A stretch of 64,000 nucleotides of DNA from a virus. Where the stretch lies: the IMG/VR virus record IMGVR_UViG_3300015261_000002, positions 1 to 64,000 of that record, one strand, 5' to 3'. This document shows, in pieces, positions 2,551 to 62,217 of the stretch. The notes under the pieces were generated by a model. It had not been told where the DNA came from. It saw only the letters and a program-made list of their open reading frames with translations, and did not search any database. Both the position numbers and the translations under genes were made by a program. Numbering within the stretch: position 1 is the stretch's first letter; every line of letters begins with the position of its first letter.

Positions 2551-5500
2551 TTACGCGCGTTTACGTTCTCGCAACATACGTTTAGCCCTTTCGAGTTTGG
2601 CGTCCTCGATAAGACTGTCCACGGTGAGGAGTTTCGCTGTTTCTGGAGGAAGCAGTTTGCTGAGCTTGTTGATCTCAGCTTCCAGACGCATCGCCAGGAT
2701 GTTGTCGTTGGTGTTCAACAGCTCATCCGTCAACTTCTGCACACGTTTCTTGATGTTGTCCATGAACGAGATAATGCTTGGATCAACTTCAGGAGCGCTC
2801 TTCTGCTTACCGGCGTCAAGGAGGTTACGCGTCTCCGACAACTGAATCCCGGTAGGAATCCCGTACATCGGTTTGTTTTGTCCCAACTTGATAAACCAGT
2901 ACGTCAGCAACCAGGCGATAACCAAGTCATCGTGCTGTTTACTGTCGTGGTCGATACGGTCTCCTTTCGTCTTGAGGTTGATCAACTCATCAGCCAGTCG
3001 ATCGTAGTTCAGCCCATACCCCGTTACCCCCACAGCTTCCTGAATTAAACCGTACAGGACTTCACGGGATTTAGCCGTGGTGTTAAATCCAAAGAACTGT
3101 TTGTACTTCAGGTAGAAGCTCTTACTGCGGTGAGCGAACTTGGTGTGCTGAACAGCCTCGTACTCCTTCGAATGGTTGACCGGGTCCTGGAAGATCTGGT
3201 TGTAGATCTTCGTGAACGGATCCATCCCTTTTGCCGGCAACATCACGAGGAGGTTATCGATCATGTGGTGAGCGTAGTTGCGTTCAATCACCAGCAGACT
3301 GTTTTCAAAGGTGGCCAGCATGTCCACAATGATCCCGGTTACATCATCCAGGAAAGCCAACTGATAACGTCCCACCCCAATCACCTTACCGGTTCGCATA
3401 CTGCGGATAATCAGCGTACAGGCGTCCTTGTTGATAGCCGATGAGGTATCCACCCCAATGAGGAAGAAGTCGTTATGGCTCTTCTTCGCCATCTCCAGCA
3501 GTTCTTGCTGCGTGACAAAGAAGTCTACAAACAGACCACTGTCACGATACTCCTTACTCCACACCTTATCCCGCTTCACGTTGTTGATCGCTTCACGGGT
3601 GATGTCGTCGAACACACGGTTCTCACCGTCTTCAACCCACATCAACAGCAAGTCGATCTTAGCCTTAGCCAAACTGAGGTTCAGGCTGTCAATCGTTTCA
3701 CGGACCCAGGCTTTGTCCTTGCCGAGTTGCAGGTAGTTATACACCAAGGCCACAGACGGTGACGTGGTCTTCTTCGGAGACGCTTTCAGCAATCGCATCT
3801 TCAGATGGCTTTCGCTGTAGGAGTCAAAGAACTTCTCACGCCACTCGGTCGACGTCATCAGCTTCTCAAACATGAACTCACCGCTTGGGTGAAGGGTCGT
3901 GTTTGGTGTCGTGATGTAACTGATCCCGTAAGGAATACCGCTGTCACGACAAATCTCCATCTCTGTCAGAGCAGAAGGAGAGCATCCGTTGATGATCGCC
4001 TCGATCCAGTTAATGTAACCTGGCTCGTCGTAGTTCGTGGTGCCTACCGTGAGACCCCGTCCAAGGTCACCTGCGGCGTCTTCACCCATCTGGGGTACCG
4101 AGATGGTCAGGGTGTTAACGTGCTCCTCCCCAAACGCTTTATACGTCAGGTAGTTACCCGCGTCCTTGTCTTTCCAGGTTGGGTTAACAAGGTACTTCGG
4201 CAAACAGGTTCGGATCTTTTTGATCGCGTCAATGAACTGAGCCCGGTTATCCGACTTCAGTGTCACAAGGTGAGACTTGTAGCCGCGCCCCATGATGTAC
4301 GTCAGCCAGAAAGCAATCACCTGTACCGATACCGTGTTGTGGGTGACCAGGAAGTCGTCAGTGACGTAGAGGTGTTCCTCGTTGTCGACTTCAATGCAGG
4401 TGCACGGTGCTTCACCGTAGTACTCGATCCGATCTACAAACAAACGGTTGTCGAATACAAACTCATCTTCAACGGTCTTGTACTTAAACAAAGCCATCGA
4501 AGCAGGAAGCGTAACCGTGAACTTACTGCCTTCCTTCAAAGCAGTGCCACCCAGTCCACGAGCGAGATACTGTACGTGACCGCCTACAAGCCTGCTGGAG
4601 GTCTTGTAGATGACACCCTCATCGCCGACTACTCCTTGGTCCAGAAACGCCTGTAACAGCAACAGGCGATCTTCCCAGGCCCCTTCCAGGTAGTCTACAG
4701 GCACCCCAAGCTCAGGATCGATAGAGATCTTCACATTCTCATCGGTCGAATGAATCTCACGACGATTACCCTTACAGACGAGTTCCAACCCTTCAGGCAG
4801 GTTCTCAACCAAGAAAGCATCGCAAGCATCCGACACCTTTTTGATCAACAGGTAACCACCAATCTGCTGAGCCCCGATCAAGGTCCCCATGACATACGGG
4901 TTGATCTTGAAGGTCTTTGCTTCTCCCTTCTCGGTCTCAATCAGTGGGAACTCAAGTTTAACCCCATCCTTGAGTTTCGTGATCATCTCGGCAGTCGTGT
5001 AGTCATCCCAGATGGGTTCGTCGTTAACCGTACGACCGTGGTCTGCCAGAGTCCACAGGTGCTCAGGCCCTGCGCTGACATAACGACCATCACTGGCATA
5101 AACACGGTACAGCCGTTTGATACCTTGAGCGTGGATACCGATAACCGTGGACTTCTTGCCGTAGCGATCGATAACCTCATCACCGGCTTGCAGATCCCCA
5201 ATCCGTCTCCAGGTCCCATCAGCCATGCGAACCTTGTCATTGTCATCCTGGTACTTGCCCTGTTGACGAGGCATGATCATGTACTGGGTGATGTGGTTCA
5301 GGTAGTTCCAGATAAAACTGATGTTCCCCCGATTCGCAAGGAACTGTCGGTCTGCCCGCAACTTACACACCTCACGGAGGAAGTACCAGAAGTTGGTCTC
5401 GCTCTCGTGCATGATCATGACTTTCTGTTCGTTTGTCAGATCGTCAGCGTAAGGGTCTACCCCGATAAGGGCCGGGTTGTTCAGTTGCAGCAGGAAGTTA

Positions 5501-5808
5501 AAGTTCTTAATCCCCTGTTGCCGAAAGATCTCAGCGGTCCGGATGAAACTGGTGTTACGGGTGGTGGTGTCAGGAATTGCACGATAACGAGCAAAGTCCT
5601 TTAGGAATCGAACGGTCTTGATCTTTGACAAACTGTCTTCATTGAAGTGAGCCATGATCAGCTCATCTTCGGTACGCTTCTCCCAGTCGACCCGGTTCTT
5701 ACGGTCGTCAATCAATTCACGTGGAAGGTTTTGTGCCCCAAGGTAATTCATGAGGTCTTTGGCAAACTTGAGCTGGCCCTCGTCTGCCGTATTCTCGGCT
5801 GTAGTCAT
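2551..5808 (-). CDS. terL: Terminase large subunit, interrupted by an intein
   Basis: DNA-packaging motor: an ATPase that drives DNA into the prohead and a nuclease that cuts it. I start at the ATG at 5808, with GGGAA suitably upstream; a GTG at 5826 has no ribosome site. The Walker A loop PRQQGK-T is split by an intein (residues 186-491). After splicing the ATPase continues with a Walker-B-like NYDEP (~592-596). The RNase-H-type nuclease shows GVDTSS (~785-790), VIERN (~840-844) and D..SKQHDDLVIA (~953-964), all acidic residues present. The 779-aa spliced product is in the phiKZ gp25 size range. The following genes, tail sheath and tube repeat the phiKZ gp25-gp30 order. Packaging would need protein splicing, because the P-loop is broken until it occurs. 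Confidence 0.95.
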   Translation of the reverse strand: MTTAENTADEGQLKFAKDLMNYLGAQNLPRELIDDRKNRVDWEKRTEDELIMAHFNEDSLSKIKTVRFLKDFARYRAIPDTTTRNTSFIRTAEIFRQQGIKNFNFLLQLNNPALIGVDPYADDLTNEQKVMIMHESETNFWYFLREVCKLRADRQFLANRGNISFIWNYLNHITQYMIMPRQQGKYQDDNDKVRMADGTWRRIGDLQAGDEVIDRYGKKSTVIGIHAQGIKRLYRVYASDGRYVSAGPEHLWTLADHGRTVNDEPIWDDYTTAEMITKLKDGVKLEFPLIETEKGEAKTFKINPYVMGTLIGAQQIGGYLLIKKVSDACDAFLVENLPEGLELVCKGNRREIHSTDENVKISIDPELGVPVDYLEGAWEDRLLLLQAFLDQGVVGDEGVIYKTSSRLVGGHVQYLARGLGGTALKEGSKFTVTLPASMALFKYKTVEDEFVFDNRLFVDRIEYYGEAPCTCIEVDNEEHLYVTDDFLVTHNTVSVQVIAFWLTYIMGRGYKSHLVTLKSDNRAQFIDAIKKIRTCLPKYLVNPTWKDKDAGNYLTYKAFGEEHVNTLTISVPQMGEDAAGDLGRGLTVGTTNYDEPGYINWIEAIINGCSPSALTEMEICRDSGIPYGISYITTPNTTLHPSGEFMFEKLMTSTEWREKFFDSYSESHLKMRLLKASPKKTTSPSVALVYNYLQLGKDKAWVRETIDSLNLSLAKAKIDLLLMWVEDGENRVFDDITREAINNVKRDKVWSKEYRDSGLFVDFFVTQQELLEMAKKSHNDFFLIGVDTSSAINKDACTLIIRSMRTGKVIGVGRYQLAFLDDVTGIIVDMLATFENSLLVIERNYAHHMIDNLLVMLPAKGMDPFTKIYNQIFQDPVNHSKEYEAVQHTKFAHRSKSFYLKYKQFFGFNTTAKSREVLYGLIQEAVGVTGYGLNYDRLADELINLKTKGDRIDHDSKQHDDLVIAWLLTYWFIKLGQNKPMYGIPTGIQLSETRNLLDAGKQKSAPEVDPSIISFMDNIKKRVQKLTDELLNTNDNILAMRLEAEINKLSKLLPPETAKLLTVDSLIEDAKLERAKRMLRERKRA
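4336..5253 (-). mobile_element. Class 3 (WCT-type) intein in the terminase P-loop
   Basis: 306 residues inserted exactly between Lys and Thr of the Walker A motif, ending ...THN with Thr as the +1 residue. Block A reads YQDDNDKV, so the first residue is Tyr, not Cys/Ser. The class 3 signature is present: block B HLW (H65, W67), block F Cys (C286 in CIEVD) and Thr before the terminal His-Asn (T304). The centre has a degenerate LAGLIDADG endonuclease: VMGTLIGAQQIGG (121-133) and QAFLDQGVVGD (201-211), with neither catalytic acid in its usual place. I therefore infer a splicing-competent but non-homing element. Confidence 0.88.
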
Positions 5809-5859
5809 GATAGGTTCCCATTGCACATCAAAAAATAAAAGATACTCGCAAAAATAAAG

Positions 5860-57604: not shown

Positions 57605-59332
57605 TTACACCTGACGAATCGATCCAACTTCAATGCCGTCATCGCCTTCAACTACCTGACGGTAGGTGTACGGTTTGATGTACGGGCACTGAACGTCGAG
57701 CAGATAGCCATAGACCGCATCGACAAAGCTTTGCGTGTAGCTGTTCAGGATCTGCTTCTTGAAGTCCAGCTCTTCGTTTTCGATCGGAGTCGGGCGACCT
57801 TCTTCGTGATACTCGTAAACGACCCACTCGTTCAGATCGAGACCGATGTTGCCGCCGTGAGCGGTCAGCTTCGTGATCACTTCGTTCGCCACTTCTTCCA
57901 TGTACTTGACGCCGTACGCTGGAGAGAAACCGTAGACACGGTTCAGGAAGTGACTCGACGCCATCAGTTGTTCTTTGAGGTTGGTGTCAAAGATCTCCTG
58001 AATCATCGGATGCGGGTTGATCATGTCGCGGTGCTTCTGGAACATGCGATTGATCTGGCGCGTGCCGTGGCTGATGCGCTTGACGTTGACCTGAACGGAC
58101 TTGCTGTACGAAGACCACTCGAAGATGTTGATCGGTTCATCACCGAGAACGATCTCCCCGGATTCAGGCAGACGAGGGTAAACGCGATCCAGCGCAACGT
58201 TCATCTCTTTCAGACCATTGACACCCTTGAAGCTCAGGTAGAGGTCGTGGTCTTTTTCCTTGACGAGGTCGGCCAGTTTCAGAGCGATACGGTTGAGTTC
58301 AGACAGACGACCACGGAGGTCTTCGTTCATGCGCTCGCAGACTTCTTTGACGAGGGTAAAGTCGCCATCTACGAGTTCATCGATCGGCTCTTTGCTGAAC
58401 GAGAGCGGGAAGAAGGACAGCGGCAACTCTATAGGCGCCTGGGTTACATTGAGGTTGAAACCCCGCTCGGAGTGACGACGTTGGTGGGTCCACTTCATCG
58501 GGTCTTCGCCTTCCATCTCGTAGAAGAAGACCGGAATGTCCTTGCTCCGAACAACAAACGAGCGCGACACTTCATCCACCTGGAAACGGAACCAGGTCAC
58601 TTCCTGATCGCCATCCATGCCGAGGTAACGGAAGATACGCAGATAGACAGGATACGTCAGGTCGATGCGGGGGTCGTGTGCCACTACGCTGAACGGCACA
58701 TCGGTAACCGCCATCATGAAGAAACGGATCAACGCGGCGGTAGTCTTTGGAAGACTGTCGTCACGGTTCGGGAAGATCTGCGGCAGCGAGTGCATTGCGT
58801 TGGCGAGCATGCCGGCGATGTTGGCTTCCTTGGTGCTACTGGCAAAGCTTTCCACCGGACCAACTTTAATCGTGGCGTCATCGGTACCTTCTTTTGGTGT
58901 GGTCATGTCCTTCAGAAGCTCACCGAAGCTTTCAGGGGAGTGCGTTTCAACAAGAACAGCATCACCCGCTTGATGCAGTACCTGAGCCTCGCCGTCGGCA
59001 ATAACGAGTTCACCTTTTTCATCACGTTCGTGAACTGGCTGTTCGTACGCCAATGGAACACGATCACCGGCTTCGTTGGTGGTCTCAACAGGCAGCTCCA
59101 TAACTTCTGCCAGTTTGTCCATGTGATTGTTCCAGTCGGTCAGCTGTACCGGGATACCTTCTGGCATCTTTTCGATGTAACCTTCTTTGGGAGCGTTAGC
59201 CCGAGTCTCTTCGACCAGCGTATGCCATTCTTCGTCAGTCCCAACAAAACCTTTTGCCACCGCATTTTCGTAGGAAGCGTCAGGGTGGACGTAACCAATG
59301 TCACCGCCTACATCTTTCTTTTCATCGCTCAT
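57605..59332 (-). CDS. Unknown large protein
   Basis: 575 aa, GAGGGA ribosome site. Acidic N-terminal ~150 residues, then a folded region with many aromatic residues (IPVFFYEMEGEDPMKW, FHLNRVYGFSPAYGVKYMEE). No transmembrane helix, Walker motif or known domain. Strong codon bias like the sheath gene points to high expression, so a major virion or phage-nucleus-type protein is conceivable. I do not assign one. Confidence 0.75.
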   Translation of the reverse strand: MSDEKKDVGGDIGYVHPDASYENAVAKGFVGTDEEWHTLVEETRANAPKEGYIEKMPEGIPVQLTDWNNHMDKLAEVMELPVETTNEAGDRVPLAYEQPVHERDEKGELVIADGEAQVLHQAGDAVLVETHSPESFGELLKDMTTPKEGTDDATIKVGPVESFASSTKEANIAGMLANAMHSLPQIFPNRDDSLPKTTAALIRFFMMAVTDVPFSVVAHDPRIDLTYPVYLRIFRYLGMDGDQEVTWFRFQVDEVSRSFVVRSKDIPVFFYEMEGEDPMKWTHQRRHSERGFNLNVTQAPIELPLSFFPLSFSKEPIDELVDGDFTLVKEVCERMNEDLRGRLSELNRIALKLADLVKEKDHDLYLSFKGVNGLKEMNVALDRVYPRLPESGEIVLGDEPINIFEWSSYSKSVQVNVKRISHGTRQINRMFQKHRDMINPHPMIQEIFDTNLKEQLMASSHFLNRVYGFSPAYGVKYMEEVANEVITKLTAHGGNIGLDLNEWVVYEYHEEGRPTPIENEELDFKKQILNSYTQSFVDAVYGYLLDVQCPYIKPYTYRQVVEGDDGIEVGSIRQV

Positions 59333-59373
59333 CTTTTTCCCTCTTTTTAAATGGGTGCCATCGGAGGCAGTTC

Positions 59374-62217
59374 ATGCTTAACTTATTTTCAGTTGCTGTA
59401 AGGCAAACTGGGGTCTTTGTACATATCACAGGAGTTTCATACGGCGCCCTGTCACGAGATATCGAGAAGTTCTACAGCAGTTCATTGCTCACCAAATGGC
59501 AGATCCGCCGAGAGACCTGGGATTCCATCAAGGTTCATAACTTCTTTCTGGTAGAGCTGCACATCATCCTGGGTGAACTGCTAAAGGTTCGTAACCTCCG
59601 TAGTCGTCGTAGAGAGTTGGCAGAATTAAAACACCTGCTTGAAACGGAAACCTGGATCAAAGATACTGTCAATCCTGCTGGTAAGCGGTTCGACTTCAAA
59701 AAGCTGGATCGCTTCAACGTGGTTCCTTTCCCGAAACAGCGTGAGTTTCTGGAACAGTACCCCATCATCAAACAGAGCTATCACCTTAAAGGATTGTTGC
59801 TCGATGCCGCAGTGGGTAGCGGTAAGGCGATGCCACTGAACACGCAAGTCAAGGTGCCGGGTGGCTGGAAGCGTCTTGGCGACCTTAAGATAGGTGACCA
59901 GGTGATAGGACCCAAGGGTAACGTCGCTAACGTCACAGGTTACTTCCCTCAAGGTGTAACCGAGAGTTTCCGTTTTACCTTTGAAGACGGACGTACTGCT
60001 GACTCTCACCCATTGCATTTGTGGGAAGTGGCGGAGTCAGGATTTGACGGCAGTGGTAATGCGGTGGGTCAGACCCATGTGACCACGACAAAGGATATCG
60101 TGAATCACTTCGACCAGTTCAGTTACCACATCCCATTGGTAGGTGATGTCGGTGACAGTATTGAACCGTCAGCACTCGACCTGGAGCAGATCGCCACCGG
60201 GCTGCTGACTGCTGGTATACATATGGCCGACCCAGTGACAGAACTTTCCTACGTGGATCGTCGTCAGATCGCCAAGCACATGATCGAAAAGTCGGGCTGT
60301 CATTTGTCTGAGGTTGGGGTGTCAGTAATCACCGATAATGCCTACGGCGCCACAAACTTCCAGAAGCTCATGTGGAGCCTTGGGGGCGTCGCTAACCTCG
60401 AAACCTTTGGTGACCTGTTCAAGGTTAGCTTTAAGCACCGAGACATCGCCTGGCTCGTCGACAGCCTTGTATTGGAGTCCCTCGGTAACATCCTCGACGT
60501 TACCCAGTACATGAACCTGAAGTTGAAGCTGGTCGCCATCCAGCAGCAGCCGCAGATCGAAACCGCCTGCATCAGTATTGACAGTGAAGACTGCCTTTAC
60601 ATCGTTGACAACTGGATCGTCACGCACAACACCGTAACCTCGTTGATGTGGTCGATGCTTGTCAGTGATAACAAATGCATCATCGTCTGCCCTCTGAACA
60701 TCGTTGAAGAAGTTTGGCTGGGCAACATGAGGAAGCGCCTCAAAGAGATGCCGCGGGTATGGACGTCTACGTCAGGTCGTTTGTTAACGGACGATTACGA
60801 CTACTACATCATCCACTACGAATTCCTCCAGGGGAATCACTACGACCACATGCGTAAATGGTTTAACGAAGCCATGAAGCGCAACAAGAAGAAGTTCAGC
60901 TTGATCGTCGATGAGTCTCACAACTTTAACGACATCAAGTCTAAGCAGACTCGCCGGTTAGTAGAGTTGGCGGACGATGGGTTGTTCGAAGACTCCCTAC
61001 CGATGTCTGGGACACCGCTGAAGGCACTTGGGAGTGAGATCTACCCCATCACCTGCCTTATCGACAAACACTTCGACAAGCCGGCCAGAGAGTTCTTCAT
61101 GGCGAGCTATGGACGTAACCGTCCCGCGCTAATCTCGTTGTTGGCCAACCGTATCGGGCGTGGGAAGTTCTCCATTCCTGAACTGGCTGGTATGGGCGAT
61201 CCTCCTCCGTTTGAGATCATCAAGGTTAAAATCCCCGACGGGGATAAGTACACCCTGGAATCCATTCGCCTGGAGATGCAGAACTACATTGTGGAACGGT
61301 TCGCGTTCTACAGTAAGCACATGGCGCAGTTCATCGTGTTCTATAACGATGTAATTCAGCGCTATGAGTATTCGATCGCTAAACAACCCAAAGAACTTGC
61401 TGACCTGAAACGCTACAAGGCTATCGTTAACCGCTTCCGTACCCAGGGGTATAACAACTTCACGGACTCGGTCGACAGCGCCTTCTGCAAGGCTGTAGAG
61501 GAGGATATTGAACGTGGTCTAAAAGGTCCTGAGCTGGCTGAGTTCCGTAATGTGAAATCGGCCGTTAAGTACCTGGCGTTGAAGATCCGTGGTGAGGCGT
61601 TGGGTAATGTCTTGAGTCGTGCTCGTATCAATGCGATTAAAGACTTGATCGCGCACGCTGAACTGCCTAAGTACATCAACGACGTAGAGAAGAAAACCTT
61701 GATTTTTACCTCTTACGTCGAAGCCTTGAAACTCTCGGTAGACTACTTGGCTGCCCAGGGCTTTAAGCCTGTATCGGTGTACGGTGAGAACAGCAGTGAA
61801 CGTGACGCCACCGTCAAGCTGTTTGCCGAAGATCCAAAGATCAACCCGCTGACAGCCACGTACAACAGTCTGAAAGAAGGTTACCCGATGTTGATGGCTA
61901 ACCAGATCATTGGACTGGACTCCCCATTCAGGGAACATGAACTGCGACAAGTAAAAGGAAGGATCTGGCGCACCGGTCAGGATGCCGCCCAGTGTTTCTT
62001 CCGTATGCTGGATATGGATACCGGAGATAAGCTCAACATCACCACGCGCAGTCTGGACATCCTGGCCTGGAGTAAAGAACAGGTAGATGCCTTGATGGGT
62101 CGCATGGAAGGTCACGTGGCGTTTGCTAACGTAACCGGTGAGGAGTGTCTCGATATCAGCGAAGAATTAATCGGTCGTCCGTTGAAGATGACTAACAGTG
62201 TTCTCTCACTCTTTTAA
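59374..62217 (+). CDS. SNF2-family helicase, interrupted by an intein
   Basis: 947 aa from ATG 59374, with GGAGG 7 bases upstream; upstream frame to 59254 overlaps the divergent gene. SF2/SNF2 ATPase motifs: motif I LLDAAVGSGK-T split by the intein (residues 152-419), DESH (513-516), SGTPL (545-549) and motif VI QVKGRIWRTGQ (859-869) with both Arg. The spliced protein is 679 aa. Probably a DNA translocase used in replication, repair or transcription. Followed by the gene at 62231 after 13 bases. Ends MTNSVLSLF. Confidence 0.92.
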   Translation: MLNLFSVAVRQTGVFVHITGVSYGALSRDIEKFYSSSLLTKWQIRRETWDSIKVHNFFLVELHIILGELLKVRNLRSRRRELAELKHLLETETWIKDTVNPAGKRFDFKKLDRFNVVPFPKQREFLEQYPIIKQSYHLKGLLLDAAVGSGKAMPLNTQVKVPGGWKRLGDLKIGDQVIGPKGNVANVTGYFPQGVTESFRFTFEDGRTADSHPLHLWEVAESGFDGSGNAVGQTHVTTTKDIVNHFDQFSYHIPLVGDVGDSIEPSALDLEQIATGLLTAGIHMADPVTELSYVDRRQIAKHMIEKSGCHLSEVGVSVITDNAYGATNFQKLMWSLGGVANLETFGDLFKVSFKHRDIAWLVDSLVLESLGNILDVTQYMNLKLKLVAIQQQPQIETACISIDSEDCLYIVDNWIVTHNTVTSLMWSMLVSDNKCIIVCPLNIVEEVWLGNMRKRLKEMPRVWTSTSGRLLTDDYDYYIIHYEFLQGNHYDHMRKWFNEAMKRNKKKFSLIVDESHNFNDIKSKQTRRLVELADDGLFEDSLPMSGTPLKALGSEIYPITCLIDKHFDKPAREFFMASYGRNRPALISLLANRIGRGKFSIPELAGMGDPPPFEIIKVKIPDGDKYTLESIRLEMQNYIVERFAFYSKHMAQFIVFYNDVIQRYEYSIAKQPKELADLKRYKAIVNRFRTQGYNNFTDSVDSAFCKAVEEDIERGLKGPELAEFRNVKSAVKYLALKIRGEALGNVLSRARINAIKDLIAHAELPKYINDVEKKTLIFTSYVEALKLSVDYLAAQGFKPVSVYGENSSERDATVKLFAEDPKINPLTATYNSLKEGYPMLMANQIIGLDSPFREHELRQVKGRIWRTGQDAAQCFFRMLDMDTGDKLNITTRSLDILAWSKEQVDALMGRMEGHVAFANVTGEECLDISEELIGRPLKMTNSVLSLF
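59827..60630 (+). mobile_element. Class 3 (WCT-type) intein in the SNF2 helicase P-loop
   Basis: 268 residues between Lys and Thr of GSGK-T. Block A is AMPLNTQV, so residue 1 is Ala. Class 3 signature: HLW (H64, W66), Cys248 in ACISID and Thr266 before terminal His-Asn. The C-terminal 21 residues match those of the terminase intein closely. The middle has an unrecognisable, shrunken endonuclease relic (LMWSLGGVANLE resembles the tail of a LAGLIDADG half). Confidence 0.88.

Follow-up and report, generated by a model that had tools for sequence, protein, structure and literature searches.

The large terminase subunit gene of a phage-EL-like jumbo phage is interrupted inside its Walker A motif, between Lys191 and Thr498 of the precursor (numbered from the GTG start of the reading frame), by an insert that is, judging from its residues and their conservation, very probably a splicing-competent class 3 intein. 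The gene is located in the stretch of DNA analysed here, the first 64,000 nucleotides (“the window”) of the virus record IMGVR_UViG_3300015261_000002, which totals 224,747 bp. By the rules for class 1 inteins the insert looks defective, yet it appears to be an ordinary class 3 intein under selection.

The terminase reading frame comprises 1091 codons counted from GTG. Its product is 63% identical over the full length to gp11 of Pseudomonas phage EL, which is annotated as terminase large subunit, and it matches the PHROG family phrog_2 (terminase large subunit) with an E value of 3e-38. Translation likely starts at an ATG at residue 7 of the frame, giving 1085 codons; this start fits, by arithmetic, the annotated start of the EL protein. 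The insert spans precursor residues 192-497 and thus 306 amino acids. It is placed between the Lys and the Thr of the Walker A motif (GK^T), because uninterrupted homologs from Vibrio phages VP4B and pTD1, Serratia phage Sureiya and Kosakonia phage Kc263 read straight through this point as PRQ(Q/S)GK-TV. Six viral contigs, pTD1 again among them, also lack the insert at the junction. The uninterrupted homologs rule out a shifted boundary, and the position that an earlier note on this DNA had given for the intein is exact at both ends (Table 1). The Pfam model Intein_splicing has no match in the record, and the terminase intein scores below the cut-off of Hom_end_hint; general models therefore miss this intein, and homolog alignments are needed to find it.

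Table 1. Features of the interrupted terminase gene and of a second intein in the window (positions are those of the window)
Feature	Position	Strand	Basis
Terminase large subunit precursor gene, EL gp11 homolog	2551-5826	-	ORF; identity to EL gp11; phrog_2
N-extein from the likely ATG, ending ...IMPRQQGK (first part of Walker A)	5254-5808	-	translation; homolog alignment
Class 3 intein (very probable), 306 aa	4336-5253	-	uninterrupted homologs; signature; fold
Tyr1 codon (A:1), position variable among homologs	5251-5253	-	sequence and alignment
His65 (block B:10), invariant	5059-5061	-	sequence and alignment
Trp67 (block B:12, W of WCT), invariant	5053-5055	-	sequence and alignment
Degenerate LAGLIDADG homing endonuclease domain, intein residues ~103-265	4459-4947	-	AlphaFold and Foldseek; catalytic acids lost
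LAGLIDADG motif 1 remnant, GTLIGAQQIG (active-looking relatives: GVLLGDG)	4858-4887	-	alignment
LAGLIDADG motif 2 remnant, LQAFLDQGVV (active-looking relatives: LQGLLDTDG)	4627-4656	-	alignment
Cys286 (block F:4), predicted initiating nucleophile and branch point, invariant	4396-4398	-	sequence and alignment
Thr304-His305-Asn306 (block G:5-7), invariant	4336-4344	-	sequence and alignment
+1 Thr, C-extein residue 1 and Walker A Thr	4333-4335	-	homolog alignment
C-extein, TVSVQ... to the C terminus: remaining ATPase domain and nuclease domain	2554-4335	-	
Class 3 intein of an SNF2-like helicase (gene 59254-62217), 268 aa with Ala1, at Walker A GSGK^T	59827-60630	+	

Class 3 inteins are assigned by a position 1 other than Cys, Ser or Thr, by Trp at B:12, Cys at F:4 and Thr at G:5, and by Ser or Thr, rarely Cys, as the +1 residue (PMC5222942, PMC7891396). 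The terminase intein shows all of these sequence features: Tyr1, His65, Trp67, Cys286 (in the context CIEV), Thr304-His305-Asn306 and a +1 Thr. Their conservation was assessed in 41 distinct inteins at the terminase site, which diverge to a pairwise identity of 19% (median 35%), and in 33 sampled relatives from other genes, which constitute weaker evidence, as they were chosen by a pattern already requiring the C-terminal motif. His65, Trp67, Cys286, Thr304, His305 and Asn306 are invariant in 74 of 74 sequences, and the +1 Thr, tallied for the terminase set only, is constant there. Among the terminase inteins merely 17 of the 306 positions are invariant, including all six catalytic ones; the probability of these named positions all falling among the 17 is about 1e-8, which rules out a chance motif. 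As read from the alignments, this pattern is a class 3 signature under selection. The Tyr in place of Cys or Ser at position 1 and the triad of Trp67 (two residues after His65), Cys286 and Thr304 before the terminal His-Asn, as described in the earlier note, are thus present, and its class 3 reading gains support from the invariance of these residues across a divergent family. A class 1 reading is ruled out by the lack of Cys, Ser or Thr at position 1 and by Cys rather than Asp at F:4. Two further features of these blocks deserve mention. At B:7 (intein residue 62), 34 of the 41 terminase inteins have Gly; the resulting GxxH departs from the DxxH reported for mycobacterial class 3 inteins such as DnaBi1 (PMC6195587) and counts against the assignment, although this motif is no strict class definition. 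The CxC formed by C284 and C286 was considered as a redox pair and rejected for the family as a whole, as just 24 of the 41 terminase inteins have Cys at 284.

Position 1 itself is occupied by 11 kinds of residues in the 41 terminase inteins (Tyr 11, Met 6, Ala 6, Phe 4, Leu 4, Glu 4, Pro 2, and Gln, Asn, Asp and Gly once each) and never by Cys, Ser or Thr; of the 33 class 3 inteins sampled from other genes, 32 have Ala there. Since the position varies freely across the terminase lineage, Tyr1 alone is unremarkable. In the literature covered on class 3 inteins, of which 1701 are published, we found no test of bulky position 1 residues such as Tyr in a native class 3 intein. The 11 natural variants of a single lineage represent a ready panel for testing the indifference of class 3 splicing to residue 1.

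An AlphaFold model of the intein, built with 22 aligned homologs (pLDDT 89.7), shows an intein with a LAGLIDADG domain. In Foldseek searches the whole model matches PI-SceI and the TliVMA intein, both of which pair a LAGLIDADG domain with a splicing domain. Its splicing part matches the class 3 inteins MchDnaB-1 and Msm DnaB (6rix/6riy/6bs8), although some class 1 inteins score comparably, so that the class cannot be told from the fold by itself. The family profile, run against the PDB, retrieves class 3 chains 6rix and 6bs8 together with the WCT-engineered gp41-1 (6riz) at E values of 1e-7 to 1e-9, whereas the native, class 1 form of gp41-1 is hit less well (1.6e-5).

Both LAGLIDADG motifs of the endonuclease domain lack the catalytic acid (GTLIGAQQ and LQAFLDQG, versus GVLLGDG and LQGLLDTDG in Klebsiella phage Miami). 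This loss is common to the whole EL-like clade, while both acids are still present in the terminase inteins of phages Miami, N1M2, AerS_266 and CF8. The endonuclease is therefore predicted to be catalytically dead, with its fold retained in the model. In comparisons with close relatives, its dN/dS values of about 0.04-0.34 indicate purifying selection, weaker than on the exteins, where dN/dS is mostly 0.03-0.10 and selection is strong; both splice blocks behave like the exteins. According to the published homing cycle, the endonuclease decays after fixation and the splicing domain may come to need its scaffold (PMC8966425), and a dead but folded and selected domain fits this scheme. An endonuclease that is dead while its fold is kept implies that the intein is now vertically inherited. 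Its retention is probably due to the need for a base-exact loss in an essential gene, and perhaps also to a splicing fold that leans on the endonuclease scaffold. The domain furthermore is a mosaic at intein residues ~121-200, where the loci L026 and L016, 97% alike in both exteins, share 57%, and L026 shares 88-95% with L006 and L016 80-95% with L007. The terminase intein of another record (L025 in G008), which measures just 272 aa and has a deletion within its endonuclease domain, may be on the way to a mini-intein.

Based on these residues and boundaries, we infer the following course of splicing. Cys286 (F:4), aided by His65 and Thr304, would attack the Lys191-Tyr1 peptide bond, and the transfer of the N-extein to Cys286 would generate a branched thioester at block F. 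The acyl group would then be taken over by the +1 Walker A Thr, the cyclisation of Asn306, assisted by His305, would release the intein, and an O-N acyl shift would join GK to T, thus restoring ...PRQQGKTVSVQ... in a terminase of 779-785 aa (779 aa assuming the ATG at residue 7, 785 aa with GTG). Tyr1 would be a mere spectator, which would explain why position 1 drifts. Since the +1 Thr doubles as the Walker A Thr, the precursor should bind ATP poorly or not at all. In P. horikoshii RadA, a P-loop intein disrupts ATPase function, and Msm DnaBi1 provides a direct precedent for insertion at the P-loop (PMC6195587). Given an insertion inside Walker A, and with no second terminase found in the 224,747-bp record, splicing should be required for packaging, in agreement with what the earlier note had suggested for the packaging ATPase. 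Our literature search found no splicing data for terminase inteins of this lineage.

Scanning viral contigs with the C-extein alone yielded 46 loci. All loci with a C-extein at least about 62% identical to that of the window carry an intein at GK^T, and all uninterrupted loci show at most 53% identity; judging from this sample, the EL-like clade appears to be fixed for the intein. In a tree of the splicing domain (141 columns, many forks open) the sequences cluster for the most part according to the gene they interrupt, and the terminase inteins of the EL-like phages fall into a single supported set, a pattern that vertical descent would produce. Several intein-bearing terminases and one helicase (L036, L045 and L052, and in other phage records) are annotated as “DarB-like antirestriction”, and an intein-bearing protein of Aeromonas phage ZPAH34 is labelled gyrA; both labels apparently are misannotations.

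The terminase is not the only gene of this phage with a class 3 intein. The intein of the SNF2-like helicase (Table 1) is related to the terminase intein and not part of it, and a third one, also starting with Ala1, resides in a 778-aa helicase near 193 kb of the record (L047). Both helicase inteins harbour the same signature, sit at Walker A GK^T and contain degenerate endonucleases. Intein-free orthologs of the second helicase measure 511-523 aa, and all three junctions read show an empty G-x-GK-T site. Phage EL contains four inteins, every one directly after Gly-Lys. In Shewanella phage FishSpeaker the inteins of two helicases (L173, L174) are 67% identical to each other and 32-34% identical to the intein of its terminase; as the helicase inteins also keep intact-looking endonucleases, their sequences suggest that an intein has recently moved from the Walker A site of one gene to that of another. 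The SNF2-helicase intein also occurs as free-standing relics, with no helicase exteins, in the records G008 (L175/L190; positions 549-1439 of L175) and G006 (L176, near the start), neither of which contains a helicase elsewhere. The G006 relic retains WCT and THN and extends about 4 residues beyond THN, and the G008 relic ends with VTR instead of VTHN. It is conceivable, albeit improbable, that the up to four class 3 inteins at Walker A GK^T/S sites of EL-like jumbo phages (terminase, SNF2-like helicase, second helicase), their endonucleases mostly dead, are kept as shared post-translational switches, which would block the ATPases of packaging and replication until the catalytic cysteine can act, e.g., under redox control.

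Three other accounts of the terminase insert have to be weighed against class 3 splicing. The insert might be a decayed intein that no longer splices and leaves a broken terminase pseudogene. A class 3 pseudo-intein of this kind is documented in Arthrobacter (Arth_1007; PMC3196547), the G006 and G008 relics resemble this orphan, and the endonuclease of the terminase intein is itself predicted to be dead. Yet, Arth_1007 lost Cys F:4 and His B:10, which are both invariant in the terminase inteins, and the strong purifying selection on exteins and splice blocks, along with the essential role of the terminase in packaging and the lack of a detectable second copy in the record, renders decay very unlikely.

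Equally unlikely is a class 2 route, where the +1 residue attacks directly and Cys286 plays only a structural role. Class 2 inteins likewise lack a position 1 nucleophile, and inteins with a class 3 signature could in principle take either route (PMC5222942); however, Cys F:4, Trp B:12 and Thr G:5 are invariant, the closest solved splicing domains belong to class 3, and the published signature-bearing inteins tested in the same study require Cys F:4. Least plausible of all is a Hint domain that cleaves one or both ends without ligation and leaves N- and C-terminal terminase pieces to act in trans, even though mostly cleaving Hint domains are known and the WCT residues grafted onto gp41-1 mainly cause C-cleavage (PMC7664689). 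Cleavage alone would not need the +1 Thr that is invariant in the terminase inteins (albeit this residue also serves as Walker A Thr), and with a cut inside Walker A a functional ATPase would be expected only from the ligated product. Class 3 splicing hence remains by far the preferred reading.

Class 3 inteins, their association with phages, insertion into P-loops and the retention of dead endonucleases are already known. Less ordinary are the freedom at position 1, the GxxH in block B, a dead endonuclease in an apparently fixed intein and the fact that a single phage has inteins at several Walker A sites. In EL-like jumbo phages, terminase annotations should denote precursors, the ATPase site of which would be assembled by splicing, and the apparently fixed intein of these proteins, with its dead endonuclease, is a useful case for studying intein persistence.

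The closest known counterpart is the intein of Pseudomonas phage EL gp11, which the InBase catalogue lists as PP-PhiEL ORF11. It shares the gene, the GK^T site, the WCT residues and the dead endonuclease with the terminase intein of the window, to which it is 44% identical, but it has Gln at position 1 and comprises 313 aa instead of 306 aa. In the literature on phage EL inteins we found nothing on the terminase intein. The terminase inteins of Klebsiella phages Miami and N1M2 and of Aeromonas phages AerS_266 and CF8 agree in site and signature; in contrast, they are 350-360 aa long and keep the acids in both LAGLIDADG motifs (GDG and DTDG), and hence they may still be mobile. M. smegmatis DnaBi1 and M. 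chimaera DnaB1 (PDB 6bs8, 6rix, 6riy) are alike in class and splicing fold, down to an identical numbering of His65 and Trp67 (PMC6195587, PMC7664689), and the M. smegmatis intein also lies in a P-loop, whose Ser serves as the +1 residue (PMC6195587). Unlike the terminase intein, these are mini-inteins without an endonuclease domain, their host protein is DnaB, and DnaBi1 has DxxH in block B where most terminase inteins have GxxH. Finally, the P. horikoshii VMA intein (PMC8966425) similarly keeps a dead LAGLIDADG domain as an intact fold after fixation, but it splices by the class 1 route (the crystallised protein is a C1A mutant) and occupies a different site in an archaeal ATPase.
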